DNA of 64,000 nucleotides, from NCBI RefSeq assembly GCF_004193175.1, contig NZ_SAUH01000001.1, positions 5,613,501-5,677,500 on the forward strand, read 5' to 3'. Each line of letters begins with the position of its first letter. Within the stretch, counting starts at the first letter, position 1. Below the pieces are notes generated by a model. It searched no databases. It saw only the letters and a program-made list of their open reading frames with translations, and was not told the origin of the DNA. This DNA is from Streptomyces sp. RFCAC02. Lineage in GTDB: Bacteria > Actinomycetota > Actinomycetes > Streptomycetales > Streptomycetaceae. Both the position numbers and the translations under genes were made by a program. Shown here piece by piece: positions 22,908 through 38,774 of the stretch.

Positions 22908-22922
22908 CTAGCCTTGACCGGC

Positions 22923-23365
22923 ATGAACCGGAGACGTGCCAAGAAGCTGTCGCACCGCCTGGTCGGCGCCGCGATGACCGGGGACACGGCGCTCGTCCGC
23001 CGCCTCCTGCGCGCCGGCGCCGACCCGGGGGCGGCCGATCCCGCAGGCACGACGCCCCTGTACGCGGCGTCGGTCCACGGGGCCGCCGACATCGCCGGCC
23101 TCCTCCTGCGCGCCGGCGCCGACCCGGACACCGAGAGCGGCCACGGCGACGAGGGCACGCCGCTGTGCGCGGCGGCGTCCTGGGGCCACACGGAGACCGT
23201 GCGCGTACTCCTCGCGGCCGGGGCCGACCCCGACCTCCGCGAGGACCACGGCACGGGCCTGTCCCCCTCGACTGGGCGGAGAAGGGCACCCACACGGAAA
23301 CACTCGCAGCCCTGCACTCCGCCGGCGCCCGCCCGACGGACGAACCCGGGACCTCGCACACCTGA
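22923..23365 (+). pseudogene. Ankyrin-repeat protein with a frameshift near its 3' end
   Basis: The product is a small protein with three to four ankyrin repeats (LVRRLLRAGADPGAADPAG, TPLYAASVHG, IAGLLLRAGADPDTESG, TPLCAAASWG, VRVLLAAGADP). The reading frame leaves the ankyrin pattern at the C5 tract 23263-23267. The last half-repeat, PLDWAEKGTHTETLAALHSA, continues in another frame and ends at TGA 23363-23365. Adding one C would restore a protein of about 147 residues. Without it the frame runs on to 23840 and overlaps a convergent gene. It could be a real mutation or a homopolymer sequencing error. The ATG at 22923 lies 15 nt from the palindromic element. Confidence 0.75.
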
Positions 23366-23446
23366 CGACGCGACCATCGGCCGGGGCACAGCGCCGACCC
23401 GCTTCGGAAAGGCGCGACGTGCCCGTCCCGGTGCATGCGGAAGTGT

Positions 23447-23477
23447 GCCCCGCCACGGGTGGCGTCCGTGGCGGGGC
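23447..23477. terminator. Bidirectional hairpin terminator
   Basis: A perfect 12-bp inverted repeat (23447-23458 with 23466-23477, 7-nt loop) lies between the ankyrin gene and the convergent small secreted-protein gene. Confidence 0.75.
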
Positions 23478-23492
23478 GGTGCCGTCCGCCGG

Positions 23493-23777
23493 TCAGTACC
23501 AGCGCTGGAGTTCGTAGTAGCTGACCAGGCTGCCCCCGTAGCACCGGACGATCCACCCCTTGTCCCTTTCGAGACGGATGGCGGCGGCCTCGCACTCCCA
23601 GCCCCAGAAGTACTCATCGATGGTGTGCCAGCTCGCGGCTGCTCGATAGTCGCCGGTCCACGAGTCGGTCGCGGGAGCGGCGCCTGCGGCGGCCTGCGCC
23701 GGAGCGGCGGCCAGGCCGGTGCCGATGACGATCGCGGCGGTTGCGCCGACGAGTGCGTGTCGGATGCGCATGTGCAC
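23493..23777 (-). CDS. Small secreted protein with two cysteines, function unknown
   Basis: This is a 94-residue precursor. Its signal peptide has an RIR-positive start, a hydrophobic core (VGATAAIVIGTGLAA) and a likely cleavage after AQA. The mature part of about 62 residues is rich in Trp and Tyr and has exactly two cysteines (WECEAAA and VRCYGG), which could form one disulfide. ATG 23771 (MRIRH) is an alternative start two codons downstream. No partner gene is evident; it is bordered by terminator hairpins and reads as a single transcription unit. Confidence 0.7.
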   Translation of the reverse strand: MHMRIRHALVGATAAIVIGTGLAAAPAQAAAGAAPATDSWTGDYRAAASWHTIDEYFWGWECEAAAIRLERDKGWIVRCYGGSLVSYYELQRWY

Positions 23778-23966
23778 GTCCTTTCCCCTGGTGGGCTGTG
23801 CCCGGTCCGAAGTCGGGTCAACAGTGGCTTCCGGAGCTGAACCGCGGAAGGGGAACCGGCTGTCCGGGACAGTCCCGGACAGCGTTACGGCCGTGGCCTG
23901 CGGTGTCCGGCCGGGGGCGGAGGCACCGCGCTCCGCCGGCCGCGACCGCCACGCCCGGGGAACGGG

Positions 23967-24824
23967 TCAGGACGAGTGGGCCAGGCGGGACAGGGAGAGG
24001 GTGCGGTGTGCCGCGGACACCACCGCCGCGTCCACGAAGCGGCCGTCCGGCAGTGCCAGCGCGCCCGCGTCCGTCTCCCTCGCCGCACGGACGATCTCCG
24101 CCGCCTCGGCCACTTCGGCGTCGGTCGGCAGGTACGCGTCCCTGATGACCGGCAGTTGGCGCGGGTGGATCGCCGCCCGGCCGAGGAACCCGAGCGCCCG
24201 GCCCTCCGCGCACGACCGGGCGAGACCCGCCGTGTCCCGCACGTCGGGGAAGACCGACTGCGGCGGCGGCGCCAGGCCCGCCGCCCGCGCCGCCACCACC
24301 GCCCGGCCGCGCGACCAGGCGAGACCCGCCGCGTCGCGCACCCCGAGGTCGGCCCGCAGGTCCGCCTCGCCCAGCGCGATGCCCGCGACCGCCGGGTGCG
24401 CCGTCGCCACGGCGTACGCCCGCTCCACGCCGAGCGCGCTCTCCAGCAGCGCGTACAGCGGCGGCACGGCACCGCCCGCGTCCGCCGCCCACGCCGCCAC
24501 CCGGCCGACCAGGGACGGGCACTCGACCTTCGGCAGCCGCAGCCCGGAAAGGCCCGGCAGCGGCGCCAGCCGCCGCACCTCCGCCTCGGCGAGCGGGCCG
24601 TCCAGGGCGTTCACCCGCACGTGGACCGGCACGGCGGGCCGCTCCGCCAGGAGGTCGGCCGCGGCGTCCAGCGCGTACGCCTTGCGGCCGGCGGTGACCG
24701 CGTCCTCCAGGTCCACGACCACCACGTCGGCGCCCGACCGCAGCGCCTTCGCGACGACCTCGGGACGGTCCCCGGGGACGTACAGCCACGTCAGGCGCAC
24801 CTCCTGCGCCGGCGCGCCCGTCAC
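23967..24824 (-). CDS. CoA ester lyase (CitE/HpcH aldolase family)
   Basis: This 285-residue TIM-barrel lyase of the CitE/HpcH type cleaves or forms acyl-CoA thioesters such as malyl-, citramalyl- or beta-methylmalyl-CoA. Visible features are LYVPGDRPEVVAKAL, the Mg/CoA region DVVVVDLEDAV, the arginine segment HVRVNALDG, LRLPKVECPS, and YALLESALGV with the catalytic Glu. It is the last gene of the eleven-gene minus-strand operon, and its GTG start overlaps the CoA transferase stop by 4 nt. The pair could activate and then split a hydroxy-acid released by the upstream enzymes; the acid is unknown. Confidence 0.9.
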   Translation of the reverse strand: MTGAPAQEVRLTWLYVPGDRPEVVAKALRSGADVVVVDLEDAVTAGRKAYALDAAADLLAERPAVPVHVRVNALDGPLAEAEVRRLAPLPGLSGLRLPKVECPSLVGRVAAWAADAGGAVPPLYALLESALGVERAYAVATAHPAVAGIALGEADLRADLGVRDAAGLAWSRGRAVVAARAAGLAPPPQSVFPDVRDTAGLARSCAEGRALGFLGRAAIHPRQLPVIRDAYLPTDAEVAEAAEIVRAARETDAGALALPDGRFVDAAVVSAAHRTLSLSRLAHSS

Positions 24825-26014
24825 AGCGCCCCCTGGTCCCGCAGCGCGCCGATCTCCTCGCCGCTCAGCCCGAGACCGGTGAGCACCTCGTCGGTGTCGG
24901 CGCCGTGCGGCCGGCCCGCCCAGCGCACCGCGCCCGGCGTGCCGGAGAGGCGGAAGAGGACGTTCTGCATGGTGAGGGTCCCCAGCTCCTCGTCCTCCAC
25001 CCGCGTGAACGAGCCGAGCGCGCGGTACTGCTCGTCGGCCATCGCGTCGCGGATGTCGTACACCGGCGCGATGGCCGCCTCCGCCTTCTCGAACGCCGAC
25101 AGCACCTCGGCCCGCGTCCGCTCCCCGATCCAGGCGGCGACGGCGGCGTCCAGCTCGTCCGCGTGCCGGGCGCGGCCCGCGCCGGTCGCGAACCACTCCT
25201 GCGTGACGACGTCGGGGCGGCCCACCAGGCGCATCACGCGCTCCGCCACGGACTGCGCCGACGTGGAGACCGCGACCCACGTGCCGTCGGCCGTGCGGTA
25301 GGTGTTGCGGGGCGCGTTGTTGGCGGACCGGTTGCCGGTGCGCTGCTGGAGGTAGCCGAGCTGGTCGTACCACAGGGCCTGCGGGCCGAGGACCGTCAGC
25401 ATCGGCTCGATGATGGCGAGGTCCACGACCTGGCCCGCGCCGGTGCGGTCCCGCCCGGCGAGGGCCGTGAGCACGGCGTACGCGGTGGACAGCGCGGCGA
25501 TGGAGTCGGCCAGGCCGAACGGCGGCAGGGTCGGCGGCCCGTCCGGCTCGCCGGTGACCGCGGCGAACCCGCTCATCGCCTCGGCGAGGGTGCCGAACCC
25601 CGGCCGCCGCGCCGACGGGCCGAACTGCCCGAAGCCGGTCACCCTGGCCAGCACCAGGCGCGGGTTGACCGCCGACAGCTCGTCCCAGCCGAGCCGCCAC
25701 CGCTCCAGCGTGCCGGGGCGGAAGTTCTCGACGACGACGTCCGACTCCGCGACGAGCCGCAGCAGGACGTCCCGCCCGCCGTCCGTCGACAGGTCGAGGG
25801 TGATGGTGCGCTTGTTGCGGCCGAGCAGCTTCCACCACAGGCCGACGCCGTCCTTGCTCGGCCCGTGGCCGCGCGACGGGTCGGGGCGGCGCGGATGCTC
25901 CACCTTGATCACCTCGGCGCCGAAGTCGCCGAGCAGGGTCGCGGCCAGCGGCCCCGCGAACAGCGTCGCGAGGTCGAGGACGCGCAGACCGTCCAGGGCT
26001 CCCGGGTGCGTCAT
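24821..26014 (-). CDS. CaiB/BaiF family (class III) CoA transferase
   Basis: This 397-residue enzyme moves CoA between carboxylic acids through an aspartyl-CoA intermediate. It begins with the family pattern LDGLRVLDLATLFAGPLAAT and VIKVEHPRR. It has the nucleotide-like loop GHGPSKDGVGLWWKLLGRNK and RTGNRSANNAPRNTYRTADG downstream of the catalytic Asp region VVDLAIIEPML. It overlaps the ribokinase gene upstream and the lyase gene downstream by 4 nt each. Succinyl-CoA:malate or citramalate CoA transferases paired with lyases are the closest pathway precedent, but this substrate is inferred only from the pairing. Confidence 0.92.
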   Translation of the reverse strand: MTHPGALDGLRVLDLATLFAGPLAATLLGDFGAEVIKVEHPRRPDPSRGHGPSKDGVGLWWKLLGRNKRTITLDLSTDGGRDVLLRLVAESDVVVENFRPGTLERWRLGWDELSAVNPRLVLARVTGFGQFGPSARRPGFGTLAEAMSGFAAVTGEPDGPPTLPPFGLADSIAALSTAYAVLTALAGRDRTGAGQVVDLAIIEPMLTVLGPQALWYDQLGYLQQRTGNRSANNAPRNTYRTADGTWVAVSTSAQSVAERVMRLVGRPDVVTQEWFATGAGRARHADELDAAVAAWIGERTRAEVLSAFEKAEAAIAPVYDIRDAMADEQYRALGSFTRVEDEELGTLTMQNVLFRLSGTPGAVRWAGRPHGADTDEVLTGLGLSGEEIGALRDQGAL

Positions 26015-26991
26015 CGCGGTACCTCCCCGGTCTGCCGCGCGTCCTGTTCCCGGTGCGCGCGGAACCGTTCGTCGATCTCGGCGCGCCCCGGCATGGAGCA
26101 CGAGGCGCCGGGCCGCGCCACCGACAGCGCGGCGGAGGCGGCGGCCCAGGCCATGGCCTCCGGCATCGGCCGCCCCTCGCAGCGCGCCACCGCCAGCGCG
26201 CCGGTGAACGTGTCGCCGGCCGCCGTCGAGTCCACCGCGTGCGCCGGTACGGCCGGTACGGCGACGGGCTCGGCGCCGCGCGCCGCCCACAGGCTGCCGT
26301 GCGCGCCGAGCGTCACGACGACCTCGGGGACCCGTTCCAGCAGCGCGACGGCGGCGGCGTGCGGGTCGGCGCGGCCGGTCAGCGTCTCGGCCTCGTGCTC
26401 GTTCGGCACCACCAGGTCGACGGCGGCGAGGAGTTCGTCGGGCAGCGGCCGGGCGGGCGCGGGCGTGAGCACGGTCAGCACACCGTGCGCGCGGGCGGCG
26501 CGCGCGGCGGCGAGCACGCCGTCCAGGGGCAGTTCGAGCTGGAGCAGCAGCGCGTCGGCCGCGGCCAGCACCGGTTCGTCGCCCGGTGCCAGGCCGGTGA
26601 CCGAGGCGTTGGCGCCCGGGACGACGACGATCGCGTTGCCGCCGTCGTCGTCCACGACGATGTGCGCCGTCCCGCTCGGCCCCGGCACCGTCCGCAGCGG
26701 CCCGGTCGCCACACCGGCGCCGGCCAGCGCCTCGCGCAGCCGCGCGCCGAACGCGTCGTCGCCGACGGCACCGATCATCGTGACCCGGCCGCCGGCGCGG
26801 GCCGCCGCGACCGCCTGGTTCACGCCCTTGCCGCCGGGCACCGTACGGAACTCCCGGCCCGCCACGGTCTCCCCGCGCCGGGGGGCGGTGGGGACGTAGG
26901 CGACCAGGTCCATGTTGGCCGACCCGAAGACGACCACGGACGGCGCGGACGACGGCGGTGGTGGCGGCCCGCCGGTCGTGGGGGGTGTCAT
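26011..26991 (-). CDS. rbsK: Ribokinase (PfkB family carbohydrate kinase)
   Basis: This 326-residue sugar kinase has the ribokinase features GSANMDLVAYVPTAPRRGET, the first PfkB signature GGKGVNQAVAAARAGG, the substrate loop and the second signature DSTAAGDTFTGALAVA with the catalytic Asp in the GAGD-like motif. It should phosphorylate D-ribose, or a closely related pentose, at O5. The gene is coupled to the ADP-ribosylglycohydrolase gene upstream (ATGA overlap). In this operon it would act on a pentose freed by those hydrolases, which is the strongest clue to the pathway's substrate. Confidence 0.9.
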   Translation of the reverse strand: MTPPTTGGPPPPPSSAPSVVVFGSANMDLVAYVPTAPRRGETVAGREFRTVPGGKGVNQAVAAARAGGRVTMIGAVGDDAFGARLREALAGAGVATGPLRTVPGPSGTAHIVVDDDGGNAIVVVPGANASVTGLAPGDEPVLAAADALLLQLELPLDGVLAAARAARAHGVLTVLTPAPARPLPDELLAAVDLVVPNEHEAETLTGRADPHAAAVALLERVPEVVVTLGAHGSLWAARGAEPVAVPAVPAHAVDSTAAGDTFTGALAVARCEGRPMPEAMAWAAASAALSVARPGASCSMPGRAEIDERFRAHREQDARQTGEVPR

Positions 26992-28409
26992 GCGGATGCC
27001 TCCTGGGTGAGGGCGGCCAGCTCGTCGAAGCCGATGCCGTCGAAGCCCGCGACGGTCGTCGCGAGCCGGTTCTTCAGGGGCGCCGTCCAGTGGGCGCCCA
27101 GCGCCTCGGGGGAGCCGGCCAGCAGTCCCGCGACCGAGCCGGCCGTCGCGCCGTTCGAGTCCGTGTCCCAGCCGCCGGCGACCGCCCGGCACACCGAGCC
27201 GGAGAAGTCGCCGTCCGCGTGGGTGAGGGCGGCGGTGAGCAGCGCGGCGTTCGGCAGGACGTGCACCCAGTGGTGGTCGCCGTACCGCGCGTGCAGCCGG
27301 TCCACGACGGGGTCGAAACCGCCGCCGCGCCCCTCCCGCGCGACCCGCACGCCGAACCGCACCGCCGCCGCGAGCCGCGAGGCGGGCGGCACGACCGACA
27401 GGCCGGTCCGCAGGCACGCGTGCACGTCGCCGTCGCCGGCCGCCGCGCGGGCGACCATGGCGGCGGCGAACATCGCGCCGTACACGCCGTTCGCCGTGTG
27501 GGTGAGCCGCGCGTCCCGGTGCGCGAGCGCGGCGGCCGTGGCCGGGTCGCCGGGATTCGTCCAGCCGTAGACGTCCGCCCTGATGACCGCGCCGATCCAC
27601 TCACGGAACGGGTTGCGGTGGCAGGCCGTCAGCGGCGGTTCGAGGCCGGACAGCAGGTTGCGGTAGGCGACGCGCTCGGCGGTGAACGTCCGCCCCGCGG
27701 GCAGCACGTCGAGCCACAGCCGCGCCACGTCCGCCGTGGTGAAGTCGCGCCCGTGCCGGCGCAGCACGAGCAGGCCGAGGAGCGGGTAGTTCAGGTCGTC
27801 GTCCTCCGGGGCGCCGTCGATCGTCTCGGCGAGGGACGTGGCGCGCGACCTGCGGTTCCACGGGTGTGCCGCCGCCACGTCGGCGGGCAGGCCCCGCGCG
27901 GTGAACCAGGTGCGCGGCGGCCAGTTGCCCGTGGCGCGGCCGATCGCGCGGATGCCCTCGAGCGGCAGCTTCTCCACCGGCTTGCCGAGGACGCAGCCCA
28001 CCGCGCGGCCGAGCCAGCCCGCGTGCAGCCTGGCCCGTGACGCGGGGGCGGCGGCGCCCGGCCGGGGCGCCGGCCACTCCGGGCAGGCCGCCCGGATCGC
28101 GTCCAGGCCGCTCGGCTCCCGGTCGGCCAGCGCCGAGGGGAACGCGGCCAGTTCGTCCAGCAGCGCCTCGGCGAGCGCCCGCAGCGCCGGATCGGCGGGG
28201 CCCGGCGACGCCCCGGCACGCTCCGGCGCGGCACGGCCGCCCGCCGCGCGCCAGCGCCGCTCCACCGCCGTGGTGTCCCGCCCGTCCTGCGCGGCCTGCC
28301 GCAGCTCGTGGCCGAGCAGGTCCTCCGGCTGCGCCCAGGTGAGCCGCAGCTCGTCCGGCGCGCTCGCCGTGCCCACCGCGCCCGCGCCCATGTCCATGTC
28401 CATGCTCAT
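26988..28409 (-). CDS. ADP-ribosylglycohydrolase family protein (variant A)
   Basis: This 473-residue member of the ADP-ribosylglycohydrolase (DraG/ARH) fold is the longest of four consecutive paralogues. About 100 extra N-terminal residues precede the domain. The usual GDALG-type loop is GCVLGKPVEK here, the first Mg site is EDDDLNYPLLGLL (TDDT in canonical members), and the C-terminal metal motif is GWDTDSNGATAGSVAGLLAG. Most metal-binding Asp are therefore present but the first loop is altered. The start ATG is 8 nt after the previous stop and follows GAGGGG. The 3' end overlaps the ribokinase gene. The substrate is probably an N- or O-riboside; this is inferred. Confidence 0.85.
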   Translation of the reverse strand: MSMDMDMGAGAVGTASAPDELRLTWAQPEDLLGHELRQAAQDGRDTTAVERRWRAAGGRAAPERAGASPGPADPALRALAEALLDELAAFPSALADREPSGLDAIRAACPEWPAPRPGAAAPASRARLHAGWLGRAVGCVLGKPVEKLPLEGIRAIGRATGNWPPRTWFTARGLPADVAAAHPWNRRSRATSLAETIDGAPEDDDLNYPLLGLLVLRRHGRDFTTADVARLWLDVLPAGRTFTAERVAYRNLLSGLEPPLTACHRNPFREWIGAVIRADVYGWTNPGDPATAAALAHRDARLTHTANGVYGAMFAAAMVARAAAGDGDVHACLRTGLSVVPPASRLAAAVRFGVRVAREGRGGGFDPVVDRLHARYGDHHWVHVLPNAALLTAALTHADGDFSGSVCRAVAGGWDTDSNGATAGSVAGLLAGSPEALGAHWTAPLKNRLATTVAGFDGIGFDELAALTQEASA

Positions 28410-28417
28410 CAGTCCCC

Positions 28418-29581
28418 TCACACCCCCGCGATCGCACCGAACAGGGCCTCGTGCGCCCGGCGTCGCCCGACGTCCCGGGCGAACACCTCGCGCGCCACCG
28501 CCGCGAGCGCCGCCCCCGGCGCCCGCAGATCGAGGCGGCTGGCCCGTGCCACCTCCGCGCTCCACTCGTCGGGCACCACGGACTCCCCGCCCAGCGCGCC
28601 GGCGAGCGCGCCGCCCATCGTGGCGATCGAGTCGCAGTCGCGGCCGTAGTTGACCGCGCCGAGGACGGTCTCCCGGTAGTCGCCGCCGGCGACCAGCAGC
28701 ATGCCGAGCGCGATGGGCAGCTCCTCGATGGCGTGCAGCCGCGACGGACGCCGCGCGCCGAGGGACGGCTCCCGGTAGACGGGGCCGACCGTGTCGAACG
28801 GCTCGACGGCCGCCCGCAGCGGCCCGATCGCCGCCGCCACGTCACCGATGCCAGCCGCCGCCCCGGCCACCGCCTCGATCGCGGCCCGCGTGCCGTCCTT
28901 GGCCAGGGCGATGGCCTGCTCCGTCACCGACTCCGGTGTGGCGCCCGGCGCGCACGCGGCCGCCACCGCCGCCGCGAACACGCCCGCCGCCTCCCGCCCG
29001 TAGCTCGACTGGTGCGCGCCCGCGACGTCCAGCGCCTCGGCGTACGCGCCGGCGGGGTGGCCGGCGTTCACCAGGCCCACCGGAGCCATGTACATGGCCG
29101 CACCGCAGTTGACGATGTTGCCGACGCCCGCCTCGCGCGGATCCGTGTGCCCGTAGTGGATGCGGGCGACGATCCACTTCTCCGCGAGGAAGACGCGCTG
29201 CAACGGCAGGGCCTCAGCCCCGAGTTCGGGGATCCAGCGGGGCGTCGTGATCAGGTCGGGCACCAGGTGGTCGGCGACGGCGTACGCGTCGAGGTGGTCG
29301 CGGACCTTCTCGTAGACCCGCACCAGGGCGTGCGTCATCAGGGTGTCGTCGGTGACGTGCCCGTCGCCCTTGTGGTACGGGGCGATCGGCCGCGCCGTCC
29401 GCCACGCGTCGCGGTGGAACGGCCCCACGATCCCGGTGACCCGGCCACCGTGCCGCCGCACGATGTCCTCGGGACTCCAGCCCTCCACCGCGCCGCCCAG
29501 CGCGTCACCCACGGCCGCGCCCACCAGGGCGCCGATGACGCGGGAGTCGAGGGACGGCGGGGGAGTGGTCGGCGTGCTCAT
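28418..29581 (-). CDS. ADP-ribosylglycohydrolase family protein (canonical B)
   Basis: This 387-residue protein keeps all the family's metal-site motifs: GALVGAAVGDALGGAVEG at the N-terminus, VTDDTLMTHAL (about residue 77), and GRDCDSIATMGGALAGALGG near residue 310. These residues hold the dinuclear Mg centre that cleaves the ribose-linked bond of ADP-ribosyl or ribosyl substrates. It is the clearest catalytic candidate of the four paralogues, together with copy D. Its ATG overlaps the stop of copy C by 4 nt. Confidence 0.9.
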   Translation of the reverse strand: MSTPTTPPPSLDSRVIGALVGAAVGDALGGAVEGWSPEDIVRRHGGRVTGIVGPFHRDAWRTARPIAPYHKGDGHVTDDTLMTHALVRVYEKVRDHLDAYAVADHLVPDLITTPRWIPELGAEALPLQRVFLAEKWIVARIHYGHTDPREAGVGNIVNCGAAMYMAPVGLVNAGHPAGAYAEALDVAGAHQSSYGREAAGVFAAAVAAACAPGATPESVTEQAIALAKDGTRAAIEAVAGAAAGIGDVAAAIGPLRAAVEPFDTVGPVYREPSLGARRPSRLHAIEELPIALGMLLVAGGDYRETVLGAVNYGRDCDSIATMGGALAGALGGESVVPDEWSAEVARASRLDLRAPGAALAAVAREVFARDVGRRRAHEALFGAIAGV

Positions 29582-30873
29582 GCGGAAGGTCCTTCTCTGC
29601 TGTCGCTCGATGGGTGCTCCCCGGCGGGACCGCCGGGGCGGGGGTGCTCACCGGACGGCCGCCCGCCGGGCGGCCACGTGCCGAACGGCGCGCCGGCCAG
29701 CCTGCGGGCCAGCGGCACGAGATCGGTCCCGGCGAGCTGCGGCAGCGCGCAGCCCGCGAGGACGCGACAGCTCTCCCGCCAGGTCCCCGGCAGCCCCCCG
29801 GCGCCCGACACCGCGCCGGTCAGCGCCCCGGCGAGGGCCGGCGCCGAGTCGGCGACCCGGGAGAGGCACGCCGCGCTCGGCACCGCCTCGGTCACCGCGC
29901 CGGCGGCCGCCGTCGCCACCGCGAGGGCCACCGGCACCGTCTCGGCGGCCGCGATGCCGTAGCTGTAGACGTGGTCGACGATCTCGTGCTCCAGCACCGG
30001 GACGAGCGCGAACGCGTTCCCCGGCAGGCCGGGCCGCGCCGCGACCGCCGCACGGCCGAGGCCCACGGCGCGCAGCGCGTTGCGCCGGATCTCGGTGCCC
30101 TCCGGCAGGCACGCGAGGGCCGCGTCCACGCACGCGTCCAGCGGGTCGCCGCCGAGCGCGGCGGCGACCGCCGCCGCCATGGCGCACGCGCCGTGCACGC
30201 CGTCCCCGTCCTGGGTGAAGCGCGCGTCGAACTCGGCCAGCCCGGCCGCCGCCCCCGGATCACCCGGGTGGACGGCGGCCAGCACGGTGGCCCGTACGCA
30301 GGCGGCGTCGTCGAAGTAGTGCGGGTTGTCGTGGCCGGTGGCCGGCGGGCGCAGGCCGGCCGCCAGGTTGCCGAGGCCGGCGCGCACGGAGATCCGGGCG
30401 CGCAGCGGGACCTGCGCCGACTCGATCTCGTCCGCGCGGTCCGTCGCCGCCGCGATCTCCCCGGCCAGCCCGTGCCACGCGCCCGACAGCGCCGCAGGCA
30501 CGTCCACGGGCGGCGCGACCCCGGCCCCCGCCCCGGCGCGCGCGGCGGCGTCCACCGCCGACAGGACCGCGAGCGCGGTGAACGCCGCCCACTCCGCGTC
30601 GTCGGACGGGCCGAGCCGCAACGGTTCGGGCGGCTGGTTGAGCGCTATCGGCACGGGCAGGGTCGTCGTCGCGTTGTCCTCGGCGAAGGTGTCCAGCTCA
30701 CGGGTCAGCCGCCGGGTCCACTCGGGGAGCCGCGCCGCGCGGTGCCGGCCCGACGGCCAGCCGGCGGCGTCACCCGCGGCGATGCCGAGCAGCAGGCCCT
30801 CGACACGCCGCGCCAGGTCGTCGGCGGGCCGGGCAGGACCCGCGGGCGCGCCCGTCACCGTCCGCGCCGTCAC
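29578..30873 (-). CDS. ADP-ribosylglycohydrolase family protein, degenerate metal site (C)
   Basis: This 431-residue paralogue keeps the first loop (GLLLGIAAGDAAGWPSG), but the TDDT site is only PSDDAEWAAF. The C-terminal metal motif reads SRVADSAPALAGALTG, with Val where canonical members have the first Asp (GRDADT in copy D). It may be a weakened or non-catalytic partner, or may bind a different substrate. A Pro/Gly-rich tail of about 35 residues follows the domain. The GTG start overlaps the stop of copy D, and its stop overlaps the start of copy B. Confidence 0.85.
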   Translation of the reverse strand: MTARTVTGAPAGPARPADDLARRVEGLLLGIAAGDAAGWPSGRHRAARLPEWTRRLTRELDTFAEDNATTTLPVPIALNQPPEPLRLGPSDDAEWAAFTALAVLSAVDAAARAGAGAGVAPPVDVPAALSGAWHGLAGEIAAATDRADEIESAQVPLRARISVRAGLGNLAAGLRPPATGHDNPHYFDDAACVRATVLAAVHPGDPGAAAGLAEFDARFTQDGDGVHGACAMAAAVAAALGGDPLDACVDAALACLPEGTEIRRNALRAVGLGRAAVAARPGLPGNAFALVPVLEHEIVDHVYSYGIAAAETVPVALAVATAAAGAVTEAVPSAACLSRVADSAPALAGALTGAVSGAGGLPGTWRESCRVLAGCALPQLAGTDLVPLARRLAGAPFGTWPPGGRPSGEHPRPGGPAGEHPSSDSREGPSA

Positions 30874-32003
30874 GCGCCCGGCTCCGCTGCCGCGCCCGGC
30901 CGGCGGGCGAGCCGCGCGGCCGTCAGCAGGTCGGCGATCTCCAGCACATGGCGCCCCGCCATGGACGGCAGGCAGCTCCCGCGCACCGGTCCGATGCCGC
31001 GCGCCCACTCCGGCGGGATCGCGCCCTCGCCGCGCAGCGCGCCGGCGAGCGCCCCCGCGACGGCGGCCGTCGTGTCGGCGTCGCGCCCCATGTTGACGGC
31101 CATCCGCACCGCCCCGGCGAACGACCCGGCCGCCGCCGTGAACGCGCCGAACGCGAGACCGACCGCCTCCGGCGCGAGATCCGTCCACGGGTAGCCGCCG
31201 ATGACGGTCGCGGAGCGGACCGTCCGCTCCATCGCCGGCTCGCTGTCCGCCGCCTCCTCGCGCGCCCGCCGCGCGGCGGCCACCGCGCGGCGCAGCGACC
31301 GCGCCGTCCACGAGTCGTCGGGAACGACGGCGAGGGCCGCCGCCACCACGGCGCCGGGCCCGTCGGCCACCATCGCGGCGGCCACGCCGGCCGCCACGGC
31401 CTGCCCGCCGTAGATGCCCTCCCCGTCGTGCGACACCGTGCCGTCCACCGCGACCAGCCGCGCGGCCTCCCGCGGGCGCCCCGCGGCGAACACCCCGAAC
31501 GGCGCGGCCCGCATCGCGAGCCCGTCGCTCCAGGCGTGCCGGTGCTGGGCGGTGATCGGGGCGGCGAGACCGCGCCGCAGGTTCTCCAGCGTGCCGCGCT
31601 CGCTGAACCCGGCCCCCCGGAACGGCCCCTCGTCGAGGTCGGCGATCCACTGGTGCCACGCCGACTCGACGTGGGCGACCGTCAGGTCCGAGCCGTGTTC
31701 GGCGAGCAGCAGACCCGACAGGATCGCGTACTCGGTGTCGTCGGTGCCGGCCGGGTCGTCCTGCACGAAGCCCTCGATCCGCCCCCACCTGGCGCGGATC
31801 TGGGAGGGCTTCATGTTCTCGGCCGGGGCGCCCATCGCGTCGCCCACGGCCAGGCCGAGGAGCGCGCCCCGCGCCCGCGCGGCGCACGCCGGCGCCGGTG
31901 CGGGCGCCCCGCGCGCCGCGGAGGGGAGCCGCGACGCGGGGGGCCGTGGGGGTGGGGGCTGTTCGGGCGAGGCCAGGACGCGCTGCGGGCCGGCGCTCAT
32001 CAT
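30870..32003 (-). CDS. ADP-ribosylglycohydrolase family protein (canonical D)
   Basis: This 377-residue paralogue is the first of the four. After a low-complexity Pro/Ala-rich N-terminus of about 40 residues come GALLGLAVGDAMGAPAENM, GTDDTEYAILSGLLL and, near residue 310, NMGRDADTTAAVAGALAGAL. All expected Mg-binding Asp/Thr are present. The gene lies 76 nt downstream of the sugar-binding lipoprotein gene, the only sizeable gap in the operon, so a second promoter or a processing site could sit there. Confidence 0.9.
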   Translation of the reverse strand: MMSAGPQRVLASPEQPPPPRPPASRLPSAARGAPAPAPACAARARGALLGLAVGDAMGAPAENMKPSQIRARWGRIEGFVQDDPAGTDDTEYAILSGLLLAEHGSDLTVAHVESAWHQWIADLDEGPFRGAGFSERGTLENLRRGLAAPITAQHRHAWSDGLAMRAAPFGVFAAGRPREAARLVAVDGTVSHDGEGIYGGQAVAAGVAAAMVADGPGAVVAAALAVVPDDSWTARSLRRAVAAARRAREEAADSEPAMERTVRSATVIGGYPWTDLAPEAVGLAFGAFTAAAGSFAGAVRMAVNMGRDADTTAAVAGALAGALRGEGAIPPEWARGIGPVRGSCLPSMAGRHVLEIADLLTAARLARRPGAAAEPGA

Positions 32004-32079
32004 GGGTCGTTCTCGTTTCCGCGCCCCCGCGGGGGCGCTGCGTGCGGGCGGTACGGGTGGTGGGGGGACGGGGCCATGA

Positions 32080-33417
32080 TCAGCGCTGGTACCGGTCCAG
32101 GACGCGATTGCCGTCCTCGGTGAGCTGTTCGCGCAGCTCGCCGAGGTCGTAGTCGCCGTCGTAGAAACGCTGGAAAGCGGGGGCCGCGATCTTGTCCTTC
32201 CACTCCGGGTAGCCCCGCACCCCGAGCACCGGCGACGGCCGCAGGTGCGCCGCCACCGCGACGCCCGTCGACCAGCCGAGCTCCGCCGTGTTCAACGACG
32301 GATCGGCCAGGGCCGCACGGCTTGTCGGCAGCATCCAGTCCCCGCGCGCCAGTTCCACCGCGTGGTCCGCGCGGGTGAGGAACGCGATGAAGTCGACCGC
32401 CGCCTGCCGGTGGTCGCTGTCCTCCGCGACCGAGAGGGTCTGCGGTGACACGCCCTGCGCGAGCCCGTCGGGGCCGTCCCCGGACGGCATCGGCAGCACG
32501 CTCCACCCGAAGCCGTCCGGCGCCTGCTGCGCGACCTGCTGCCGGAAGGAGAAGTTCAGCGGCAGCATGGCGTAGCGCCCGGCGAAGAAGCCGGGCAGCG
32601 TGTCGGAGCCGGACATGCCGAGGCTGCTGGAGGGCGCGGACCCGTCCTCGGTGACCTGCCGCCTGATCAGCTCGGCGACGGCCGCGTCGTCGTCGCCGAA
32701 CCTGACCTCGTTGCGGCCGTCCCCGTCGCGGTGGAAGACCCGCCCGCCGGTGGACAGCGACAGGTTCACCGACTGGCTGACCGGCTCGCGCATCGACCAG
32801 GCGACGCCGTAGGTGTCCGTGTCGCCGTCGCCGTCCGTGTCGCGGGTGAGGGCGCGGCTCGCGTCCTCGAACTCCGCCCAGGTCCAGGGCTGCTCCGGGG
32901 TCGGCACGCGCACGCCGGACTCCTCGACCAGGCGCGTGTTGACGACCAGGACGCGCGGTTCCTGGAGGAACGGCACCCCGTACACGCCGCCGTCGAACGT
33001 GGTCGTGCCCCAGGATTCCTCGGGTATGTCGGCGCGCAGGTCGTCGGGCAGGAGGCCGCCGATGTCGGCGAGGTAGCCGCCGTACGCGAAGTCGGTCAGG
33101 TCGGCGGCGTCGTCGTGGATGATGTCGGGCGCCTCGCCGCCCATGAACGACGTGAGGAGCTGGTCGTGGACCGAGTCCCAGGACCCCTGCACGTACCGCA
33201 CCTGCACGTCGGGGTGGGCGGCGTTCCACTCGTCCACGAGGGCCTTGTTGGCCTCGACGGACTCCTGCTGCCAGGCCAGGCTGAGGAAGTCGAGGGTGAC
33301 CCGGCCGTCGTCGTCCGCGCCGCCGCCACCGCAGCCGGCCAGCAGCGCGGCGGCGAGGACGGCGGCAGCGGCGGCGCGGAGCGCGGGGCGCACGCGGGCG
33401 CGGGTGTCGGCGCGCAT
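32080..33417 (-). CDS. Extracellular solute-binding lipoprotein of a sugar ABC importer
   Basis: This 445-residue family-1 sugar-binding protein has a lipoprotein signal (Arg-rich start, VLAAALLAGC lipobox, Cys at about residue 29) that would tether it to the outer face of the membrane. The mature protein has typical binding-protein pieces: LVDEWNAAHPDVQVRYV near the N-terminus, WTWAEFEDASRALTRDTDGD, and a C-terminal YPEWKDKIAAPAFQRFYDGD. An Asp/Gly-rich DTDGDGDTD stretch near residue 175 could bind calcium. Its ATG overlaps the permease stop by one base (TGATG). It follows its permeases instead of preceding them. Confidence 0.92.
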   Translation of the reverse strand: MRADTRARVRPALRAAAAAVLAAALLAGCGGGGADDDGRVTLDFLSLAWQQESVEANKALVDEWNAAHPDVQVRYVQGSWDSVHDQLLTSFMGGEAPDIIHDDAADLTDFAYGGYLADIGGLLPDDLRADIPEESWGTTTFDGGVYGVPFLQEPRVLVVNTRLVEESGVRVPTPEQPWTWAEFEDASRALTRDTDGDGDTDTYGVAWSMREPVSQSVNLSLSTGGRVFHRDGDGRNEVRFGDDDAAVAELIRRQVTEDGSAPSSSLGMSGSDTLPGFFAGRYAMLPLNFSFRQQVAQQAPDGFGWSVLPMPSGDGPDGLAQGVSPQTLSVAEDSDHRQAAVDFIAFLTRADHAVELARGDWMLPTSRAALADPSLNTAELGWSTGVAVAAHLRPSPVLGVRGYPEWKDKIAAPAFQRFYDGDYDLGELREQLTEDGNRVLDRYQR

Positions 33418-34298
33418 CAGCCCTTCACCGCCCCGGCGAGCATGCCGCCCGCGAGCCGCCGCTGGAGCAGCCCGAACAGCAGGAGGCTCGGCAGTGTGGC
33501 CAGGACGGCGGCGGCGGCCAGCGGCCCGAGGTCCGCGGCTCCCTCGGCGCCGATGAAGCGGTTCAGGATCACGGACATGGTCTGGTTCTCCGGTGACTTG
33601 AGCAGGACCAGGGCGAAGAAGAACTCGTTCCAGGCGGTGACGAACGAGAACATCAGCGTCGCCACCACCCCCGGCACCAGCAGCGGCAGCACGACGCCCG
33701 TCAGCGTCCGCAGCCTGCCGGCGCCGTCGACGGCCGCGGCCTCCTCAAGCGACGGCGGCACCGCCTTCACGAAGCCCCGCAGCATCCACAGGGCGAACGG
33801 CAGGTTCCACACGACGTAGACGAGGACGAGGCCCGCCTGTGAGTCGATGAGGCGGAGGTCCCGCAGCACGAGGAACAGCGGGATGATCACCAGCACGAAC
33901 GGGAACATCTGGCTGACCAGCACCCAGCCGGTGCCCGCCCGCCCGATCCGCGACCGGTGGCGCGCCATCACGTACGCGGCCGGCACGGCGATCGCCACGG
34001 ATATCAGCGCCGCGCTGCCCGCGACGACGAGGCTGTTGAGCGCGGACCGCAGCAGCGGCTGCGCGTCGAACGCCGCACGGTAGTTGTCGAGCCCGGGTTC
34101 GCGCGGGATCCACGCGGGGTCGATCGAGCCCAGCTCCTGCGGCGACTTGAACGACGTGGAGAGCAGCCACAGCAGCGGGAAGGCGAGGAAGACGAGGTAG
34201 CACAGCAGCGCCGCGTACTGGCCGGTGCGGCCTGCGGCGGCGAGCGCGCGCCGGCGCCCGCGGGGACGTGCGCGCCGGGTGGTTTCCAGGGTGGTCAT
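33417..34298 (-). CDS. Carbohydrate ABC importer permease (MalG-like)
   Basis: This 293-residue permease has six predicted transmembrane helices and the cytoplasmic EAA loop EAAAVDGAGRLRTLTGVVLP (about residue 190) that docks the ATPase. A positively charged N-terminus (RRARPRGRRRALAAAG) precedes helix 1. It pairs with the permease encoded upstream (4-nt overlap) and the binding lipoprotein downstream. No importer ATPase is encoded in the cluster. In Streptomyces several sugar importers share the ATPase MsiK, which probably applies here. Confidence 0.93.
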   Translation of the reverse strand: MTTLETTRRARPRGRRRALAAAGRTGQYAALLCYLVFLAFPLLWLLSTSFKSPQELGSIDPAWIPREPGLDNYRAAFDAQPLLRSALNSLVVAGSAALISVAIAVPAAYVMARHRSRIGRAGTGWVLVSQMFPFVLVIIPLFLVLRDLRLIDSQAGLVLVYVVWNLPFALWMLRGFVKAVPPSLEEAAAVDGAGRLRTLTGVVLPLLVPGVVATLMFSFVTAWNEFFFALVLLKSPENQTMSVILNRFIGAEGAADLGPLAAAAVLATLPSLLLFGLLQRRLAGGMLAGAVKG

Positions 34299-35260
34299 CG
34301 GACGGCCTCCTCGTCCTTCAGCCGGTTGCGCAGGAAGACGGTGAGCAGGACCGCCATCACCGCGACCATCACGAGCCCCATGGCGGCGGCGTAGCCGAAC
34401 TGCCCGTACACGAACGCCTCCTCGTACACGAACAGGCTCGGCAGCCGCGTCTCGCCGCCCGGCCCGCCCTGCGTGAGCACGTACACCAGGCCGAAGGAGT
34501 TGAAGTTCCAGATGAAGTTGAGGGCGGTGATGGCGAGGACGACCGGGCGCAGCGCCGGCCAGGTCACGGTCGTGAACCGCCGCCACATCCCGGCGCCGTC
34601 GAGCTGGGCCGCCTCCCGCAGTTCGTGCGGGACGTTCTGGAGCCCGGCGAGCAGGACGACCGTCGTCTGCGGCATGCCCGACCACACGCCGACCACGATG
34701 ACGGCGGGCAGCGCGAGGGACAGGTCGGTGAGCCAGTCGATGTTGTGGTCGAGGATGCCGAGATCGGTGAGCGCCTTGTTGAGCACGCCCGCGTCCTGGT
34801 GGTAGACGAGGCGCCACATCACGCCGACGACGACCTCGGGCATCGCCCACGGCACCAGGGCGAGCGTGCGGGCCAGCCAGCGGAACCGCAGGTTCTGGTC
34901 CAGCAGCAGCGCGAGCCCCGTGGACAGCAGCAGTTGCAGCGCGGTGACGGCCACCGCCCACACCAGCCCGATGCGGAAGGACTCCCAGAAGAGCCGGTCG
35001 AGCCGGAGGTCGGCGAAGTTGGCGAGGCCCACGAACTGCGTGGGGTCGGTACGGCCCGACTGCGCGTCGGTGAAGGCGAGGGACATGCCGTACAGCAGCG
35101 GCCCGACGCTGAGCAGCAGGATCGGGACGAGCGCGGGGAGCAGCAGGAACCACGCTCCGCGGTCGAGGCCGAACGCGCGTCTGCGCTGGGCCGGTGTCCT
35201 CGGCGGCGGTGTGCCGCGGCTGCCCGGGGCGGCGTCGGCCCGGGGGGCGGTGAGACTCAT
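34295..35260 (-). CDS. Carbohydrate ABC importer permease (MalF-like)
   Basis: This 321-residue permease with six predicted helices is the partner of the next gene. The EAA loop is REAAQLDGAGMWRRFTTVTW. ATG 35260 is chosen because GAGGTG lies 4-6 nt upstream, within the end of the lacI gene. GTG 35266 would add two residues and sits one base after the lacI stop. The gene is directly coupled to the regulator upstream and to the MalG-like permease downstream. Confidence 0.92.
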   Translation of the reverse strand: MSLTAPRADAAPGSRGTPPPRTPAQRRRAFGLDRGAWFLLLPALVPILLLSVGPLLYGMSLAFTDAQSGRTDPTQFVGLANFADLRLDRLFWESFRIGLVWAVAVTALQLLLSTGLALLLDQNLRFRWLARTLALVPWAMPEVVVGVMWRLVYHQDAGVLNKALTDLGILDHNIDWLTDLSLALPAVIVVGVWSGMPQTTVVLLAGLQNVPHELREAAQLDGAGMWRRFTTVTWPALRPVVLAITALNFIWNFNSFGLVYVLTQGGPGGETRLPSLFVYEEAFVYGQFGYAAAMGLVMVAVMAVLLTVFLRNRLKDEEAVR

Positions 35261-35267
35261 GCGCACC

Positions 35268-36317
35268 TCATGCGGGTGGGTCGGTCGCCGGCGCGGTCGA
35301 GGCGCGCACGACGAGACGGGGCGGGACTGTGGTGGAGCGAAACGGTACGGCCGCGCGCGCCCCCGCGGAACGCCCCGCGGCCAGCCGGTCCACCAACAGC
35401 CGCGCGGCCAGCCGCCCGCGCTCCGACGACCCCAGGTCCACGCTGGTCAGCGGCGGCCACGCCGCCTGCGCGAGCGCGCTGTCGTCCATCCCCGCCACCG
35501 CCACGTCCTCCGGTACGCGCACGCCCCGCGAGAGCAGGGCGCGCAGCGCGCCGAGGGCGAGCTGGTCGTTCGCGCAGAACAGGGCGTCCGGGCGGGCGGC
35601 CAGCAGCCCGCCCGCGGCGGCCGTGCCCGCGTCGATGCCGAACTCCGTGTGCACGACGAGGCGTTCGTCGTAGCGCAGACCGCAGGCCGCGAGCCCGGCG
35701 CGGTAGCCCTCGGCGCGGTTGCGCCCCGGCACGGTGTCCGCCGGTCCGTTGACGAACGCGATGCGCCGCCGCCCCGTGCCGTGCAGGTGCCGTACGGCGT
35801 CCGCGGCGCCCGCGACCGAGTCGGCCCGCACGCTGTCCACCGGCGTCCCCGGCGGCAGCGACCCGATGACGACGACCGGACCCGCCGCCCGCGCCAGGGC
35901 GCGCAGGTGGCCGTCGCCTATCCGGATCGGGCACAGGATCAGGCCGTCGCTCGTGCGGTCGCCGAGGCTGCGCACCACGGCCAGCTCGTCCTCGGCGACG
36001 GCGTCGGTCGAGTGCAGCAGCAGCCGGTACCCGGCGGCCTTGGCGACGGCCTGGATGGCGCGGACCATGGCGACGTACACGGGGTTGCCGATGTCCGGCA
36101 TGGCGAACGTGAGCTGCCGGGTGCGGCCGTCCTTGAGGGAGCGGGCGACGGCGTTGGGGACGTAGCCCAGTTCGTCGGCGGCCCGGCGCACCCGCTCCAC
36201 GGTGTCACGGCGGGCCGCCTGCCCGTTCAGGACGCGGGAGACGGAGGCGATGGAGACGCCCGCGCGCTCCGCGATCGCGACGATGGTCGGCCGGCCGCCG
36301 TTCGGCATCTGGAACAT
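35268..36317 (-). CDS. LacI family transcriptional regulator of the riboside operon
   Basis: This 349-residue LacI/GalR repressor has a helix-turn-helix at the N-terminus (TIVAIAERAGVSIASVSRVL), the hinge region DELGYVPNAVARSLKDGRTR and a periplasmic-binding-protein-like sugar sensor domain ending in PPLTSVDLGSSERGRLAARL. It heads the eleven-gene operon and presumably represses it until the imported compound, or a product, binds. ATG 36317 and ATG 36308 are both possible starts. A perfect palindrome typical of LacI sites lies 24 nt upstream. Confidence 0.93.
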   Translation of the reverse strand: MFQMPNGGRPTIVAIAERAGVSIASVSRVLNGQAARRDTVERVRRAADELGYVPNAVARSLKDGRTRQLTFAMPDIGNPVYVAMVRAIQAVAKAAGYRLLLHSTDAVAEDELAVVRSLGDRTSDGLILCPIRIGDGHLRALARAAGPVVVIGSLPPGTPVDSVRADSVAGAADAVRHLHGTGRRRIAFVNGPADTVPGRNRAEGYRAGLAACGLRYDERLVVHTEFGIDAGTAAAGGLLAARPDALFCANDQLALGALRALLSRGVRVPEDVAVAGMDDSALAQAAWPPLTSVDLGSSERGRLAARLLVDRLAAGRSAGARAAVPFRSTTVPPRLVVRASTAPATDPPA

Positions 36318-36340
36318 CCCCCGGAGTCGCAGGCGTTGTC

Positions 36341-36371
36341 GTAAACGTTTACAGGCACGGAAATCGTTTAC
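36341..36371. promoter_or_regulatory. LacI-type operator region
   Basis: A perfect 12-bp palindrome, GTAAACGTTTAC (36341-36352), has the central CG and flanks typical of LacI/GalR sites. The related half-site CGTTTAC follows at 36365-36371, 24 nt away. They lie directly upstream of the lacI start and probably serve autoregulation and control of the whole operon. Confidence 0.7.
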
Positions 36372-36565
36372 AGATGGTGCGACCATATGGCCTCTCCGTC
36401 AAGAGGGCGTCAACGGAGTGATGACGACGGCGCGCGCGTTCGATGACGCACCGTCAGTTCGCGCGGGGCGGGGCGGACGCCGCCCGCCCGCCGGGAAGAC
36501 ATCACCGTGGCGGCGCGCGGTGGTGCGCCGCCCGCGTGACGCGTCGACGAAGGAGCTGACACGGC

Positions 36566-37039
36566 ATGAACGCGAACGAGGCACGGAAGCGTCTGAACGA
36601 ACTGCGATCCGCCCGTGAGGGGGTGTCGAGCGACGAACTCGACCGGATATGGGCCTGCCTCGAACCCGTCCCGGCCGCCGAGATCCTCGGCCGGTGGCGC
36701 GGCGAGGTGTTCGCGACCGGCCACGGTCTGCACCGCGAGCTGGTCGGCCGCCGGTGGTACGGCAAGTCGTTCAACTCACTCCACGACGCCAAGCCCCTGA
36801 TCTGCTACGACGAGAAGGGCCGGCTCTTCTCCGACGTCGAACTGGGCCGGGGCGAGGCCAGTCTGTGGAACATCGAGTTCCGCGGCGAGGTGACCGCCAC
36901 CATGGTCTACGACGGGCGCGCGGCGTTCGACCACTTCAAACGGGTCGACGACGTCACCCTCATGGGCATCATGAACGGCAAGGCCGAATTTGTCCTCCAC
37001 AATGGTCAGCATTTCTACTTCCTCCTGGAGAGAGTCTGA
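36566..37039 (+). CDS. DUF4334 (GXWXG) protein
   Basis: This 157-residue soluble protein contains LGRWRGEVFATGHG (about residue 40), the GXWXG motif, followed by a DUF4334 region (WYGKSFNSLHDAKPLIC, then VYDGRAAFDHFKRVDD and MNGKAEFVLHNGQHFYF). Its biochemical role is unknown. Related genes often stand next to alcohol dehydrogenases, as here (34 nt before the zinc enzyme). GAAGGAG precedes the ATG by 9 nt. Confidence 0.85.
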   Translation: MNANEARKRLNELRSAREGVSSDELDRIWACLEPVPAAEILGRWRGEVFATGHGLHRELVGRRWYGKSFNSLHDAKPLICYDEKGRLFSDVELGRGEASLWNIEFRGEVTATMVYDGRAAFDHFKRVDDVTLMGIMNGKAEFVLHNGQHFYFLLERV

Positions 37040-37073
37040 CCCCGAGCACCCTCGCGCGACGGAGGAACTGGCC

Positions 37074-38165
37074 ATGCGGATGACCGCCGCGGTATCGCGC
37101 GCCCCGGAAGCGCCCTTCACCCTGGAGCCGGTCGACCTGGACGACCCGCGCCCCGACGAGATCCTCGTACGGATCACGGCGGGCGGGCTGTGCCACACCG
37201 ACCTGGTGACGAAGGCTGCGCCGCCGGCGGGCCGCTGTCCCGTGGTCCTCGGCCACGAGGGCGCCGGCGTCGTGGAACGCGTCGGCCGCGCGGTCCTCGG
37301 CGTACGGCCCGGCGACCAGGTCGTCCTCAGCTACCGGAGCTGCCGCGCGTGCCGCCTGTGCCACGCGGGGCGGCCCGCGTACTGCGAACGCACCGCGCTG
37401 CTGAACAACTCGGGGCGCCGCGCGGACGGTTCCGCCACCATGTGGCAGGACGGCAGGCCGCTGGCCGGCTCGTTCTTCGGCCAGTCCAGCTTCGCCACGC
37501 ACGCCCTCGCCAGCGCGGACAACGCGGTCGTCGTCGGCCCCGGCACCGACCTGACCACGCTCGCGCCCCTCGGCTGCGGCTTCCAGACGGGCGCCGGCGC
37601 CGTCCTGAACGTGCTGCGCCCGGGACCCGGCGCCCGCCTCGTCGTGTACGGGGCGGGCGCGGTCGGCCTGGCCGCGCTGCTCGCGGCCCGCGCGGTCGGG
37701 GTGCGGTCCGTGGTGGCGGTCGACGTGCATCCCGAACGGCGCGCCCACGCCGCGCGGCTCGGCGCCGGCGCGGCGCTCGACCCGGCCGGCGCCGACCTCG
37801 TGGCGGCCGTCCGGGAGGCGACGGGCGGCGGCGCCACGCACGCCCTGGACACCACGGGCGTGCCGGCGGTCGTGGCGCACGCGGCGAAGGCCCTGGCGCC
37901 CACCGGCACCCTCGTGGTCGTCGGCCTCGGCGAGGCGGAGCTGACCGTCGACCTGATGGACATCCTGCTCAACGGGAAGACGGTGCGCGGCTGCATCGAG
38001 GGCGACGCGGTGCCGGAGCGCTTCATCCCGCGCCTGCTCGACCTGCACGCCACGGGCCGCTTCCCGGTGGAGGAGCTGATCACGACGTACCCGTTCGAGG
38101 ACATCAACCGGGCCGTCGCGGACCACCGGTCGGGCGCGGTGGTGAAGCCCGTCCTCGTGTGGTGA
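37074..38165 (+). CDS. Zinc-dependent alcohol dehydrogenase (aryl/allyl-alcohol type)
   Basis: This 363-residue medium-chain dehydrogenase has the zinc-binding features GGLCHTDLVT, VLGHEGAGVVERVG, and the four structural-zinc cysteines in CRACRLCHAGRPAYC. The Rossmann loop is VVYGAGAVGLAALLAARAVG. It oxidises a primary or aryl alcohol with NAD(P), or reduces the aldehyde. ATG 37074 is chosen because GGAGG ends 8 nt before it. The DUF4334 gene upstream is probably co-transcribed. The next gene is convergent and 13 nt away. Confidence 0.92.
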   Translation: MRMTAAVSRAPEAPFTLEPVDLDDPRPDEILVRITAGGLCHTDLVTKAAPPAGRCPVVLGHEGAGVVERVGRAVLGVRPGDQVVLSYRSCRACRLCHAGRPAYCERTALLNNSGRRADGSATMWQDGRPLAGSFFGQSSFATHALASADNAVVVGPGTDLTTLAPLGCGFQTGAGAVLNVLRPGPGARLVVYGAGAVGLAALLAARAVGVRSVVAVDVHPERRAHAARLGAGAALDPAGADLVAAVREATGGGATHALDTTGVPAVVAHAAKALAPTGTLVVVGLGEAELTVDLMDILLNGKTVRGCIEGDAVPERFIPRLLDLHATGRFPVEELITTYPFEDINRAVADHRSGAVVKPVLVW

Positions 38166-38709: not shown

Positions 38710-38774
38710 GGCCTCATCCTCTCCCGCCGCCGGGGCGCTCCCGCACCCGGCGCGCAACGACCGGATCGCGCACC

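Follow-up and report, generated by a model that had tools for sequence, protein, structure and literature searches.

The described systems closest to the locus considered here, an eleven-gene operon within a 64,000-nt stretch of the Streptomyces sp. RFCAC02 genome (the window; NZ_SAUH01000001.1, positions 5,613,501 to 5,677,500) that encodes four ADP-ribosylglycohydrolase (ARH) family proteins in a row, each share part of its gene content: (i) The Escherichia coli yegTUV operon, whose products we take to be a transporter, an ARH-family protein and a PfkB kinase, resembles it in holding these three kinds of gene together. It differs in having a single ARH gene, a regulator of another family and a proposed link to glycogen; CoA-transferase or lyase genes are not named for it in the abstract of the source, where the functions of yegTUV are unclear and the regulator GgaR/YegW senses ADP-glucose (PMC10819704). 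(ii) The itaconate/methylsuccinate cluster (Ict/Rip, Ich, Ccl) likewise pairs a CoA-transferase with a CitE-family lyase, which splits citramalyl-CoA into acetyl-CoA and pyruvate; the same source reports a CoA-transferase/lyase pair without the hydratase in C. necator, its role unknown (PMC12290011). However, the itaconate cluster has no importer, LacI or ARH genes, and the ARH operon no itaconyl-CoA hydratase. (iii) The methylaspartate operon of glutamate fermentation (glm-mal-DUF1446-DUF4387-fumD) has the AtuA/DUF1446 and DUF4387 pair in common with the ARH operon as found in Bacillota, but makes citramalate from glutamate, and no ARH, ribokinase or sugar importer gene was seen in the three such operons viewed. 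(iv) DraG and the ADP-ribosyl hydrolases named ARH1-ARH3 belong to the same Pfam family, and their catalytic Glu and metal motifs recur in the operon proteins ARH1, ARH3 and ARH4 (numbered here by gene order). The operon ARHs differ in their metabolic operon context, in not reaching the equivalog models, in the degeneracy of ARH2, and in the extra regions of ARH4 and of ARH7, a 700-residue ARH form of non-actinomycetes.

We read the operon as encoding the breakdown of a small conjugate between ribose and a branched hydroxy-diacid, the acid being taken as citramalate, and give this reading a probability of about 0.48. It is built on the gene set, its conservation, protein motifs, an operator and the swap of one enzyme module for another, from which every reaction and substrate is deduced. 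If it is correct, a protein family associated with the reversal of ADP-ribosylation would acquire a metabolic role, an unrecognised and apparently common soil compound would be indicated, and a frequent soil-bacterial gene cluster, so far annotated piecemeal, would be explained. Searches of an open-access library gave no description of this ARH operon, and the initial annotation of the window knew of no described pathway with its gene set.

Gene order and conservation

The eleven genes run in one direction on the minus strand from 36308 to 23967 (Table 1, listed in operon order). Families were assigned by Pfam for all eleven and by NCBIfam for ten, and the coding ranges translate without internal stops, which confirms the LacI-led operon with four consecutive ARH paralogues first proposed from the bare sequence. 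The mostly 1-4-nt overlaps reported there also stand, at 7 of 10 junctions (at the remaining ones the genes lie 7, 76 and 8 nt apart), but the LacI start does not: it is likely at 36308 rather than 36317.

Orthologues were sought in 246 genomes of the class with ARH4 as query (E ≤1e-10, at most six candidates scored per genome). Matches occur in 50 of the 246, and 42 genomes have an orthologue whose identity is 55% or higher, with one contig-edge fragment in addition; for the window's genus the figure is 18 of 22 sampled genomes. Leaving aside the window's own genome there are 41 orthologues, and 20-kb regions were taken around 30 of them. ARH1-2-3-4 keep the same order in 28 of these 30 actinomycete regions, the exceptions being L061, where the order is permuted, and L059, which starts inside ARH3 at a contig end. 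Because the same four subfamilies recur in the same order, the cluster is not a chance assembly. CaiB and CitE are found in 29/30 (the miss, L046, is cut by its contig) and the ribokinase in 25/30; the neighbourhood of ARH, PfkB and CaiB/CitE genes that the initial annotation had singled out does therefore travel together.

The importer is less constant. LacI, both permeases and the binding protein are present in 18 of the 30 regions, and an in-locus importer is absent from 12, one of them contig-cut. All eleven regions fetched from the window's genus lack importer and LacI. In seven of these eleven genomes (L175-L181) permease A, permease B and the binding protein lie together elsewhere, at 61-75% identity, with no LacI match beside them in the fetched stretches, and a close binding protein was not found in four of the eleven. 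Enzymes and importer are thus joined in one operon in the window's strain and split in most of the sampled relatives.

Upstream of the LacI gene lies the exact palindrome TGTAAACGTTTACG, a putative operator, which is the sole site in the genome at ≤1 mismatch and has 3 matches at ≤3 mismatches, against 0.23 expected in shuffles. A palindrome centred on AACGTT stands upstream of LacI in 72 of the 85 loci that have both LacI and ARH3, compared with 191 of 4250 random slices from the same loci. LacI would repress the operon from this one palindromic operator until the imported compound, or something formed from it, relieves the repression.

Searches of plasmids led to Rhizobiales, where Sinorhizobium sp. 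B11 carries LacI, two permeases, a binding protein, ARH3, a 700-residue ARH, a UgpC-type ATPase, a CoA-transferase and a CoA-ester lyase. A profile built from the ARH3 alignment was then scanned against 84,980 species' genomes, and the best 80 loci of more than 594 matched stretches were kept; these were ranked against rhizobial ARH3, so that the sample leans to Alphaproteobacteria. By record title they comprise 47 alphaproteobacterial loci, 22 of Bacillota type including metagenome-assembled genomes (MAGs), 6 actinomycete, 3 from Burkholderiales and 2 from MAGs of other phyla (L112 and L161, counted apart). Together with the 30 actinomycete regions they form a set of 110 loci, of which 90 have a LacI/GntR regulator, 91 an importer of the ATP-binding cassette (ABC) or major facilitator superfamily (MFS) type, and 55 a ribokinase. 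The gene set, whole or in parts, thus recurs in Actinomycetota, Proteobacteria and Bacillota. The Burkholderiales loci consist of LacI, an MFS transporter and ARH3, with a ribokinase in one of the three, so ARH3 plus an importer looks like the smallest form; loci of importer, ARH3 and ribokinase alone also occur (e.g. L103, L127).

The ARH subfamilies

All four operon ARHs, scanned as longest open reading frames (ORFs), exceed the PF03747 cut-off of 26.2 bits by far (Table 1), and they account for four of the five PF03747 matches in the genome. A FastTree tree of 118 representatives, midpoint-rooted and with groups taken from tree order, resolves five groups: ARH1 (clade support 0.91), ARH2 (1.0), ARH3 (0.99), ARH4 (1.0) and ARH7 (0.70). 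A recent tandem duplication of the four genes was considered and excluded, their best mutual identities being about 27-33% over the longer alignments and each ARH grouping with its counterparts from other genomes. The four are old, distinct and non-redundant subfamilies. ARH3 is about 40-43% identical to its rhizobial counterpart, and the ARH1 and ARH2 groups both include Bacillus members, so this pair either arose before the phyla separated or moved between them at an early date.

The catalytic Glu and the two metal motifs (T/S/D-D-D and D-x-D), whose roles we assume to be those in DraG and human ARH3, are intact in ARH1 (43/43), in ARH3 (116 of 117 gap-free sequences) and in the ARH4 clade (49/49), and are kept in nearly all ARH7 sequences. 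In ARH2 the catalytic Glu and the first Asp of D-x-D are each found in 0/43, and the first D-D is kept in 42/43. These counts are drawn from related sequences and so are not independent events; L147, with a single short ARH1-like piece, was omitted from them. ARH1 and ARH2 occur together in 40 of the 110 loci, adjacent in all 40, and are both missing from 69, L147 being a doubtful exception to the pairing. Because the catalytic Glu and metal-site Asp are absent throughout and the gene always lies beside ARH1, ARH2 is probably a pseudoenzyme partner of ARH1 as catalytic subunit; if so, the conserved pair would clearly exemplify a pseudoenzyme within the ARH family.

What the ARHs act on could be read in another way by virtue of the family name and fold: salvage of ADP-ribose or NAD breakdown products, or reversal of protein ADP-ribosylation. 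Among solved structures, ARH1 and ARH3 are indeed closest to DraG, ARH3 and their relatives (matches of ARH2 in a PDB sequence search are weak, E 0.024 or worse, and ARH4 gave none to E 0.1). Yet the best scores fall far below the equivalog cut-offs, 66.2 against 337.05 bits for DraG (TIGR02662) and 47.4 against 490 for Tri1 (NF041672), Pfam and NCBIfam place the importer in the carbohydrate SBP_bac_1/CUT1 class, and among the 12 gene families that recur in most loci (88-locus clustering) there is no Nudix hydrolase, phosphatase, nucleosidase or ADP-ribosyltransferase, judged from sequences and labels. We consider this explanation very improbable. The initial annotation had suggested a riboside or ADP-ribose-like substrate, of which the riboside outline largely holds, whereas ADP-ribose itself is unlikely.

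In the catabolic pathway favoured here, the ARH proteins would be metal-dependent glycosidases that do not act on protein ADP-ribosylation. ARH3 would cut the main ribosidic bond, and ARH4 (ARH7 in other phyla) and the ARH1-ARH2 pair would handle further linkages or decorated forms, the pair acting as a catalytic plus a regulatory or structural subunit. ARH4 and ARH7 contain extra regions without a Pfam match; the C-terminal part of ARH7 may be lectin-like, as judged by eye only.

Some ARH genes lie in other settings. Beyond the operon the genome has one more ARH gene, its fifth, at G000:C1:2389330-2390238 (L001), with the highest PF03747 score. ARH4-like paralogues were seen in further neighbourhoods (L066-L073, L080, L081), several of which (e.g. 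L066, L068, L071, L072, L080, L081) adjoin LacI, ABC or ribokinase genes; this suggests further ARH-based sugar pathways. On an Enterobacter hormaechei plasmid (L168) an ARH7-like gene lies with LacI and a solute-binding protein between chiP and the glnS-nag genes.

Import, sugar kinase and acid modules

The sugar ABC importer would take the compound up, served by an ATPase encoded elsewhere, and the free D-ribose released from it would be phosphorylated by the ribokinase. By PDB sequence comparison and alignment the operon kinase is most like solved ribokinases. Among 58 related kinases N-x-D and GGKGxNQ are present in 58/58, and the Glu and AGDxF in 57/57 gap-free rows, motifs that presumably serve the sugar site and catalysis. 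The outline of import, cleavage, ribose phosphorylation and CoA handling of an acid, as initially proposed, fits the neighbourhoods, but neither importer nor ribokinase is obligatory.

For the acid part, CaiB would use succinyl-CoA as the CoA donor to convert citramalate to citramalyl-CoA, which CitE would cleave to acetyl-CoA and pyruvate. Of the three NCBIfam models hit by the window CitE, the best is citramalyl-CoA lyase RipC_Ccl (142.1 bits; citE 130.5); among solved structures this CitE is closest to acyl-CoA lyases and citrate-lyase-like proteins. CitD, CitF and itaconyl-CoA hydratase are not among the operon's eleven genes by Pfam. Across the 110 loci the acid modules replace each other: 75 have CaiB only (69 with CitE, 6 without), 22 have AtuA/DUF1446 plus DUF4387 only, none has both, and 13 have neither. 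All 22 AtuA loci are of Bacillota type, and in these the acid step would fall to AtuA/DUF1446 and DUF4387 as a predicted CoA-independent citramalate lyase.

The same two genes occur in methylaspartate operons (L167:8001-9685, L164, L172), between methylaspartate ammonia-lyase and a fumarase-type gene; the copies in E. coli, Salmonella and Prevotella are 48-49% (AtuA) and 51-56% (DUF4387) identical to those of the ARH operon. Of six AtuA neighbourhoods inspected, five have a fumarase-type gene nearby. Among 5426 E. coli genomes, 1080 contain at least 80% of the mal-AtuA-DUF4387 stretch. A search of an open-access library found DUF4387 in no paper. According to one study, the function of the DUF1446 gene in the E. 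coli methylaspartate operon is unknown, the fate of (S)-citramalate is unclear, citramalate lyase activity was not detected in the E. coli tested, and the CoA route for citramalate consists of succinyl-CoA:citramalate CoA-transferase and citramalyl-CoA lyase (PMC4682846). AtuA/DUF1446 plus DUF4387 is thus a candidate for the citramalate-cleaving step of these operons, and if this is true, (S)-citramalate disposal in enterobacteria that carry them becomes testable (cf. PMC4682846).

We name citramalate mainly because two unrelated modules in one slot both point to it; either citramalate itself or a closely similar 2-hydroxy-diacid is the probable acid. Methylaspartate ammonia-lyase was rejected as the reason for AtuA-DUF4387 in Bacillota. 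No convincing enzyme was found in 15 AtuA-locus genomes (of the 22 loci), which gave weak PF07476 matches in 13 of the 15, two over the cut-off (best about 30 bits), much as in control genomes (weak matches in 11/14), so the AtuA-DUF4387 substrate in these genomes would come from another source.

The wider proposition is tentative, and we lean toward doubting it: that the pathway crosses phyla and serves an unrecognised, probably common soil ribose-citramalate conjugate, that the ARHs are a team of catabolic glycosidases with an obligate catalytic/pseudoenzyme pair, and that AtuA/DUF1446 plus DUF4387 is a CoA-independent citramalate lyase closing the last step of the enterobacterial methylaspartate pathway.

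Assessment of the proposed pathway

Several observations count against a ribose-citramalate pathway. On the sugar side, the kinase scores 292.6 bits with ribokinase model TIGR02152, just under the equivalog cut-off of 299.65, and a ribokinase is present in only 3 of the 47 alphaproteobacterial loci (absent from 44) and missing from 5 of the 30 actinomycete regions, one contig-cut. Where the ribokinase is missing, ribose is less sure as a product; a kinase encoded elsewhere could phosphorylate it in the alphaproteobacterial loci. On the acid side, the best NCBIfam model for the window CaiB is succinate-glutarate CoA-transferase (231.7 bits, under the cut-off of 750), the window CitE reaches neither the RipC_Ccl cut-off of 375 nor that of citE, and rhizobial CitE prefers citE (147.8) over RipC_Ccl (109.5). 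Six CaiB loci show no CitE beside CaiB, the 13 loci without either acid module include several that are contig-cut, and one of the six AtuA neighbourhoods lacks a fumarase. The swap of CaiB and AtuA modules tracks phylum lines and may reflect one or few events. Among the open-access literature matches, as far as titles and the starts of abstracts go, no ribose-citramalate compound is reported.

Almost as good a fit would be malate or some other 2-hydroxy-diacid. In an unlikely alternative the architecture is the same and the acid is malate, 3-hydroxy-3-methylglutarate or a 2-alkylmalate, whose cleavage would give acetyl-CoA and the corresponding keto acid. Several dicarboxylate CoA-transferase models score with CaiB, and the names given to the CitE family cover malyl-, citryl- and citramalyl-CoA lyases, these thioesters being substrates within the family. 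Citramalate is favoured over these acids by the place of AtuA-DUF4387 in the methylaspartate operon, where it is the intermediate, and malate needs no special route in established metabolism.

The sugar may also be other than ribose. The ARHs would then cleave a non-ribose glycoside or oligosaccharide, the kinase would use another pentose or furanose, and the CoA genes would handle an acid substituent of the sugar. The CUT1-type importer and the 44 alphaproteobacterial loci without ribokinase agree with this, as does a further protein, some 650 residues long, which ends in an FGE-sulfatase domain and whose N-terminal part has no Pfam match (e.g. L063:4270-6243); in 11 of the 30 actinomycete regions its gene separates ribokinase from CaiB. 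Relatives at 57-59% identity lie beside 2 of the 80 named-locus operons, both alphaproteobacterial, in Devosia (L095:15262-17187) and Paracoccaceae (L119:16435-18423). The N-terminal part may be carbohydrate-enzyme-like, judged by eye only. The sugar-site motifs of the kinase are, however, invariant in the gap-free rows of the 58 sequences, and we think a sugar other than ribose distinctly unlikely.

The FGE-domain protein has a distant relative (33%) on a plasmid of Sphingopyxis sp. FD7 (L170), where a TonB receptor, a ribokinase, the FGE-domain protein, an arabinofuranosidase-like protein and a CoA-transferase are encoded in a row, with no ARH in the 13 kb viewed. This row is possibly a parallel pathway without ARH that again combines a pentose kinase, a CoA-transferase and a putative glycosidase.

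Coordinates and flanking genes

Table 1. Features of the ARH operon, in window coordinates.
Feature	Range	Strand	Basis or remark
LacI-type operator palindrome TGTAAACGTTTACG, putative	36340..36353	-	upstream of LacI gene; weaker partner at 36359-36372
LacI-family regulator	35268..36308	-	PF00356, PF13377
Carbohydrate ABC importer permease A	34295..35260	-	PF00528; UgpA/MalF-like (NCBIfam)
Carbohydrate ABC importer permease B	33417..34298	-	PF00528; GlcU/MalG-like (NCBIfam)
Sugar-binding lipoprotein	32080..33417	-	PF01547
ARH1, ADP-ribosylglycohydrolase family	30870..32003	-	PF03747 192.3 bits; catalytic Glu and both metal motifs intact
ARH2, probable pseudoenzyme partner of ARH1	29578..30873	-	PF03747 104.0 bits
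ARH3, subfamily common to all phyla seen	28418..29581	-	PF03747 165.6 bits
ARH4, ARH domain plus N-terminal extension	26988..28409	-	PF03747 161.9 bits
Ribokinase-like PfkB kinase	26011..26991	-	PF00294; TIGR02152 292.6 bits
CaiB-type (class III) CoA-transferase	24821..26014	-	PF02515
CitE-type CoA-ester lyase	23967..24824	-	PF03328

An Rfam scan of 23000-37500 for structured RNA gave nothing at the gathering threshold. Outside the operon, flanking ORFs at 22788-23840 (plus strand), 36566-37039 (plus) and 38179-39780 (minus) match ankyrin repeats, GXWXG/DUF4334 and TerD.

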